NCBI GenBank assembly: GCA_014727925.1
Contig: WJMN01000018.1
Coordinates: 1-42,604 of the forward strand
Length of the DNA stretch: 42,604 nt
Source of the DNA: Microcaldota archaeon
Lineage (GTDB): Archaea; Micrarchaeota; Micrarchaeia; Anstonellales; Bilamarchaeaceae
Direction of reading: 5' to 3'
A program made the position numbers and the translations under genes. The notes under the pieces were generated by a model. The model ran no database searches. It worked only from the letters and a program-made list of their open reading frames with translations, and was not told the DNA's origin. Below, piece after piece: positions 5,050 to 42,604 of this stretch (positions are counted from its first letter, which is position 1; each line of letters starts with the position of its first letter).

Positions 5050-5156
5050 CGGGCCCGGTGGGAGTTTCACATTTTTGGATTGGCCAAAATAATGTTTTGA
5101 ACCCACGACCTACTGCTTAGAAGGCAGCCGCGCTATCCAGACTGCGCTACGGGCCC
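5050..5156 (-). tRNA. tRNA-Arg(UCU) with a T-loop intron
   Basis: Read on the minus strand: acceptor GGGCCCG pairs with CGGGCCC; the D-arm is GCGC...GCGC; the anticodon stem GCTGC/GCAGT holds the loop CTTCTAA (anticodon UCU, Arg); the variable region is AGGTC; the T-stem is GTGGG/CCCAC; the discriminator is G. The T-loop does not close unless 32 bases are removed, after which it reads TTCAAAT. The anticodon loop itself has no intron. A TATA-like CTATATAGC lies about 20 bases upstream (5171-5180). The transcript probably terminates separately from the UPF0147 operon just downstream. Confidence 0.93.
5064..5095 (-). other. tRNA-Arg intron in the T-loop (position 59/60)
   Basis: This 32-nt insertion falls after T-loop base A59. 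A textbook bulge-helix-bulge can be drawn: outer helix GTGGG/CCCAC (the T-stem), a 3-nt bulge ACT holding the 3' junction, central 4-bp helix TTCA/TGAA, a 3-nt bulge AAA holding the 5' junction, and inner helix CATT/AATG. Cutting after the second base of each bulge restores the loop TTCAAAT. A further TTTGG/CCAAA pairing closes the intron hairpin. Confidence 0.88.
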
Positions 5157-42500: not shown

Positions 42501-42604
42501 GGGCCCATAGCTCAGGCTGGTTAGAGCGACGGTCTTATATGGCCACCTCTAATACAATGGTCTAAGACAGCCGTAGGTCAGGGGTTCAAATCCCCTTGGG
42601 CCCA
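42501..42604 (+). tRNA. tRNA-Ile(UAU) with an anticodon-loop intron
   Basis: Acceptor GGGCCCA pairs with TGGGCCC, followed by discriminator A at the last base of the window. The D-arm is GCTC...GAGC, the anticodon stem ACGGT/GCCGT, the variable region AGGTC and the T-arm AGGGG-TTCAAAT-CCCCT. Removing the 29-nt intron leaves the loop CTTATAA with anticodon UAU, which reads the isoleucine codon AUA. The body (GGGCCCA acceptor, A73, short variable loop) fits archaeal tRNA-Ile and rules out class II Leu or Ser. Confidence 0.9.
42540..42568 (+). other. tRNA-Ile intron at position 37/38
   Basis: 29-nt intron with a perfect bulge-helix-bulge: outer helix ACGGT/GCCGT (anticodon stem), 3' bulge ACA, central 4-bp helix CTTA/TAAG, 5' bulge TAT, and inner helix GGCCA/TGGTC. 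Cutting after the second base of each bulge gives the canonical 37/38 junction and the UAU anticodon. Other junctions give anticodons that would need a long variable arm or an A34. Confidence 0.88.

Follow-up and report, generated by a model that had tools for sequence, protein, structure and literature searches.

The 42,604-nucleotide stretch of DNA analyzed here (the window) ends in a tRNA gene at 42501-42604 on the plus strand, flush with the contig end, whose spliced product, a tRNA-Ile with the anticodon UAU, is very probably charged by IleRS and reads AUA, replacing the TiaS/agmatidine route and leaving AUU and AUC to tRNA-Ile(GAU) and AUG to tRNA-Met(CAU). Such a tRNA is the rule in the phylum and is common in a second DPANN phylum, and it does not represent a private loss in one organism.

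The gene was matched by the tRNA model RF00005 with a score of 59.5 bits (cut-off 29 bits) and can be read as GGGCCCA TA GCTC AGGCTGGTTA GAGC G ACGGT CTTATA, the intron TGGCCACCTCTAATACAATGGTCTAAGAC, and A GCCGT AGGTC AGGGG TTCAAAT CCCCT TGGGCCC A (Table 1). ARAGORN in intronless mode reports no tRNA at 42501-42604, and when introns are allowed it reports tRNA-Ile(tat) with a 29-nt intron. At the sequence level, the mature tRNA has 75 nucleotides, A73, and the anticodon UAU; CCA is absent within the window, which ends at A73. The gene is the final feature on contig C59 of a 1.01-Mb assembly that consists of 59 contigs and is 88% complete, but it is no artifact of the contig end, since relatives in the genus carry the same UAU gene inside contigs. 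The mature tRNA has GGGCCC and A73 in common with tRNA-Ile(GAU) of the same genome, with 76% identity. However, tRNA-Lys(UUU) from this genome is as similar (77% identity), so overall similarity alone does not fix the identity of the tRNA.

Table 1. Parts of the interrupted tRNA-Ile gene at the end of the window
Feature	Position	Strand	Content or basis
5' exon of tRNA-Ile(UAU)	42501..42539	+	acceptor 5' strand, D arm, anticodon stem 27-31 (ACGGT), C32 T33 T34 A35 T36 A37
Anticodon T34 A35 T36 (UAU), expected AUA reader	42536..42538	+	placement relative to D arm and anticodon stem (A37 = 42539); ARAGORN Ile(tat)
Canonical intron 37/38, 29 nt, TGGCCACCTCTAATACAATGGTCTAAGAC	42540..42568	+	bulge-helix-bulge
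Conserved intron box ACA (RYA across families), intron nucleotides 15-17	42554..42556	+	same position in 15/22 family representatives
3' exon	42569..42604	+	A38, anticodon stem 3' strand GCCGT, variable loop, T arm, acceptor 3' strand, A73

The splice sites are fixed by a bulge-helix-bulge of the archaeal type, that is, a central helix of 4 bp with a 3-nt bulge on either side, where exon meets intron. The outer helix is ACGGU/GCCGU, the central helix, in which C32-A35 pair with UAAG, is CUUA/UAAG, and the bulges read UA^U and AC^A; this pairing, together with the two bulges, places the splice sites at 37/38 and gives the anticodon loop C-U-UAU-A-A. When the downstream sequence is shuffled, pairing of this shape at 9/9 positions is obtained in 0.46% of cases. 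Of 46 distinct UAU genes from the phylum, 44 have at least 8 of the 9 pairs (expected, 4.2). In an alignment of 16 family members, 98.3% of the cells are paired, a count biased upward because the sequences were picked with the structure in mind; the bias can be gauged from controls in which the partner is slid by 1-3 columns, where pairing falls to 18-43%. Eleven cells in this alignment are changed on both sides, and its covariation score exceeds all 500 shuffles. The initial annotation had proposed that a bulge-helix-bulge fixes the intron and yields UAU, and this is borne out by the complete set of 9 pairs, their conservation and covariation, and the ARAGORN assignment.

Evidence that AUA is an isoleucine codon comes from its frequency and its placement in proteins. 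The frequency had been proposed as a check by the initial annotation, and in 37 open reading frames chosen by hand AUA is found to be the commonest Ile codon (296/705, 42%), present in every one of them. When DNA ligase, FtsZ, and RNase Z were aligned with their solved homologues, the residues opposite AUA were Ile or Val at 51% of positions and Met at 2%, whereas Met stood opposite 21% of the AUG positions; AUA aligns with Ile, Val, or Leu, as AUU and AUC do and AUG does not. These results bear on the proposal that the gene is decaying or unused and that the reading of AUA falls to tRNA-Ile(GAU) or some other route, or that AUA has been reassigned. Expression of the gene is deduced from the DNA, which leaves room for this proposal, but the conservation of the exons and of the bulge-helix-bulge across many families, the heavy use of AUA, and its alignment with Ile, Val, and Leu make it very unlikely. 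Moreover, G34 is not expected to read A.

The second body of evidence concerns the components of the TiaS route. Neither TiaS domain (PF08489, TiaS_FLD; PF22641, TiaS_TCKD) was found in the organism's own 88%-complete genome. Its tRNA inventory comprises 46 tRNA-like matches, part of whose anticodons were read by eye, and includes tRNA-Ile(GAU), with a 41-nt intron, and only two CAU tRNAs: the initiator (C43:19188-19262) and a gene of elongator-Met type (C35:3-190) with the acceptor GCCAAGG and a 114-nt intron. ARAGORN places the intron of the latter differently and labels it Thr(cgt), but with an intron at 37/38 the exons give CCAGA CTCATAA TCTGG. No CAU tRNA of Ile2 type is present among the 46 matches from this 88%-complete assembly. 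It should be noted that tRNA-Ala(UGC) and tRNA-Arg(UCG) were likewise not found in it and that, given this and the 88% completeness, absence from the organism's own genome is weak evidence when taken alone; relatives were examined for this reason.

Several other features of the inventory may be recorded here. A sub-threshold tRNA-like sequence beside the initiator tRNA (G000:C43:19007-19092) has the same 3' half and lacks CAU; it is probably a decayed copy. In tRNA-Arg(UCU), at about 5050-5156 on the minus strand, the T loop is interrupted by an intron of about 30 nt near 59/60, and RF00005 matches the 5' part only; tRNA-Arg(CCU) (G000:C10:12662) is interrupted at the same place in the T loop. 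The elongator Met genes of the genus (L076-L081) have long introns with the conserved segments TATGAGT.CTGAGGC and GCC.ATGA.TGA, which perhaps reflect two or more introns or a box C/D guide.

Among the relatives, PF08489 was detected in none of the 301 genomes of the phylum, 96 of them at least 90% complete, and in all 4 archaeal control genomes; PF22641 was not found in 59 relatives. A strict UAU tRNA-Ile pattern matched in 229 of the 301 genomes, a count that is a lower bound, and a reversed control pattern gave almost no matches. The CAU pattern occurs mostly once per genome in the phylum, with the GCC acceptor of the elongator-Met type in 29 of the 30 loci that were read out. In the phylum that contains a Woesearchaeota genome, PF08489 was absent from all 236 genomes and the UAU pattern was present in 125; PF08489 was likewise absent from 15 archaeal genomes in which the UAU pattern has a match. 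The loss of tiaS and of the CAU tRNA-Ile2 predicted by the initial annotation is thus in agreement with the organism's own genome and, for tiaS, with the 301 genomes of the phylum; the combination of tiaS with a third CAU tRNA, which would speak against the prediction, was looked for and not found.

The same surveys bear on the suggestion that the UAU tRNA is only an addition to a normal TiaS/agmatidine system, the genes for which fall within the 12% that the assembly lacks. A genome that is 88% complete allows for such a gap, and some bacteria are reported to retain both U34 and C34 forms of tRNA-Ile along with tilS (PMC4810244), but the absence of TiaS_FLD from 301 genomes of one phylum, including 96 that are at least 90% complete, and from 236 of another, together with a CAU complement of essentially one gene of elongator-Met type per genome, renders the suggestion extremely improbable.

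Neither TiaS nor the UAU pattern was found in 72 of the 301 genomes, and a second, looser UAU pattern had no match in 43 of these 72. No recognizable UAU gene was seen in G015 and G079, whose tRNA matches were read, or in G016, whose matches were counted; in these three the pattern fails because the tRNA genes are heavily interrupted, only 20-21 tRNA-like matches, many of them interrupted, being present in G079 (97% complete) and G016 (93%). All three genomes are nearly complete, and in G015 a repeated element, CCCTAGGGGGCACTA, lies within or directly behind several of the interrupted genes. Outside the archaea, the UAU pattern also matches many Patescibacteria (CPR) and scattered other bacteria, which suggests that a UAU tRNA-Ile may be common in reduced bacterial genomes as well.

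Predicted folds of the RNA are of interest with regard to the position of the cuts. In its free minimum-energy fold the unspliced RNA does not adopt a cloverleaf; in the fold of the spliced RNA the acceptor, anticodon, and T arms form, and the D arm is not in its standard place. The greater stability of a non-cloverleaf shape for the unspliced sequence might be taken to favor splice sites other than the canonical 37/38, and hence another anticodon, but this is scarcely credible in view of a fully paired bulge-helix-bulge that is conserved with covariation and abolished by sliding the partner, and of UAU genes in some Micrarchaeota records (L153, L165) that have no intron at all, so that TTATA is read directly.

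With splicing at 37/38, the intron contains a conserved box that spans 42540-42556 in the window. The intron begins with YGRC in 15 of 22 family representatives, and RYA occupies intron nucleotides 15-17 in 15 of the 22, compared with 8 in the best of 5000 shuffles, a figure that does not constitute a probability because the representatives are related to one another. Conservation of the box extends over many families in the phylum (matching introns L052-L075 and L287-L303), and it is partly recognizable in introns of the Woesearchaeota-containing phylum and of Aenigmarchaeota; the box is missing from the introns seen of two large families (f20 and f21) and from very short introns. Cleavage at a bulge-helix-bulge is not known to require such a box. 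It is conceivable, though doubtful, that the box is a recognition element for modification of the anticodon on the unspliced RNA, preventing the reading of AUG, by analogy with the independent case of eukaryotic Pus1. Two other roles were considered and dropped: pairing of the box with 23S rRNA, as the variable part of the box loses complementarity, and a full H/ACA or C/D guide, as some introns have only 27-29 nt and Rfam detects only tRNA at the tested loci.

We infer the following course of events for the tRNA. The archaeal splicing endonuclease would cut the pre-tRNA at the canonical bulge-helix-bulge, and ligation would leave UAU; IleRS would charge the spliced tRNA-Ile(UAU), and Watson-Crick pairing of U34 with A3 would allow AUA to be read directly, so that TiaS would not be needed. 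AUU and AUC would be read by the separate tRNA-Ile(GAU), and AUG by tRNA-Met(CAU). Because a tRNA-Ile with U34 could misread AUG, avoidance of AUG would depend either on modification of U34, by ELP3 or otherwise, or on a plain U34 combined with discrimination by the ribosome. The organism itself encodes ELP3, a wobble-U enzyme. Of 59 genomes searched for it, 55 were positive, among them every one of the 26 with a completeness of at least 90%. The presence of ELP3 makes modification of U34 possible. According to one review, cnm5U is found in a mutant haloarchaeal tRNA with UAU, which nevertheless binds AUG (PMC7694415), and another review describes weak AUG binding by an unmodified UAU tRNA in B. 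subtilis (PMC4810244).

The archaeal system of Ile2(CAU) and agmatidine, formed by TiaS, solves the same problem, the reading of AUA as Ile without the reading of AUG, but the CAU tRNA-Ile2 and TiaS by which it is recognized were both not found here. In the open-licence surveys, tRNA-Ile(UAU) is presented as almost missing among archaea and AUA as generally dealt with by TiaS, and the only archaea named there as having a UAU tRNA-Ile are Nanoarchaeum and Korarchaeum (PMC6000648, PMC8450103). The statement of the initial annotation that few archaea have this tRNA therefore matches the literature but not the phylum, where the trait is usual. The tRNA-Ile3(UAU) of Nanoarchaeum equitans and Candidatus Korarchaeum cryptofilum is similar to that described here in that a UAU tRNA-Ile replaces Ile2(CAU), and the Korarchaeum gene also contains an intron and is close to the Ile(GAU) gene of the same organism (PMC6000648, PMC8450103). 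The present case differs in being phylum-wide (at least 229 of 301 genomes, with TiaS in none) rather than limited to two single genomes, and in the conserved box of the intron. Replacement of the modified CAU tRNA by a UAU tRNA is also seen in bacteria that have tRNA-Ile(UAU) and no Ile2(CAU), such as Mycoplasma, Bifidobacterium, and Neorickettsia (PMC8450103), and in a tilS deletion of B. subtilis (PMC7694415); the archaeal gene differs in its bulge-helix-bulge intron, and no common origin is claimed. In eukaryotic tRNA-Ile(UAU), too, an intron interrupts the anticodon loop, and pseudouridines 34 and 36 of this tRNA are intron-dependent (Pus1; reviewed in PMC4090602), but the likeness of the introns implies no demonstrated kinship, and a role of the archaeal intron in modification is hypothetical.

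The mechanism is thus a known one, and what is new is its breadth, which is far wider than the open-licence literature states; earlier reports may exist elsewhere. The finding raises the question of how a tRNA-Ile with U34 is kept from reading AUG in these cells. With whole DPANN lineages in which TiaS is not detected and most genomes have a UAU tRNA, the history that is inferred for the decoding of AUA in archaea changes.
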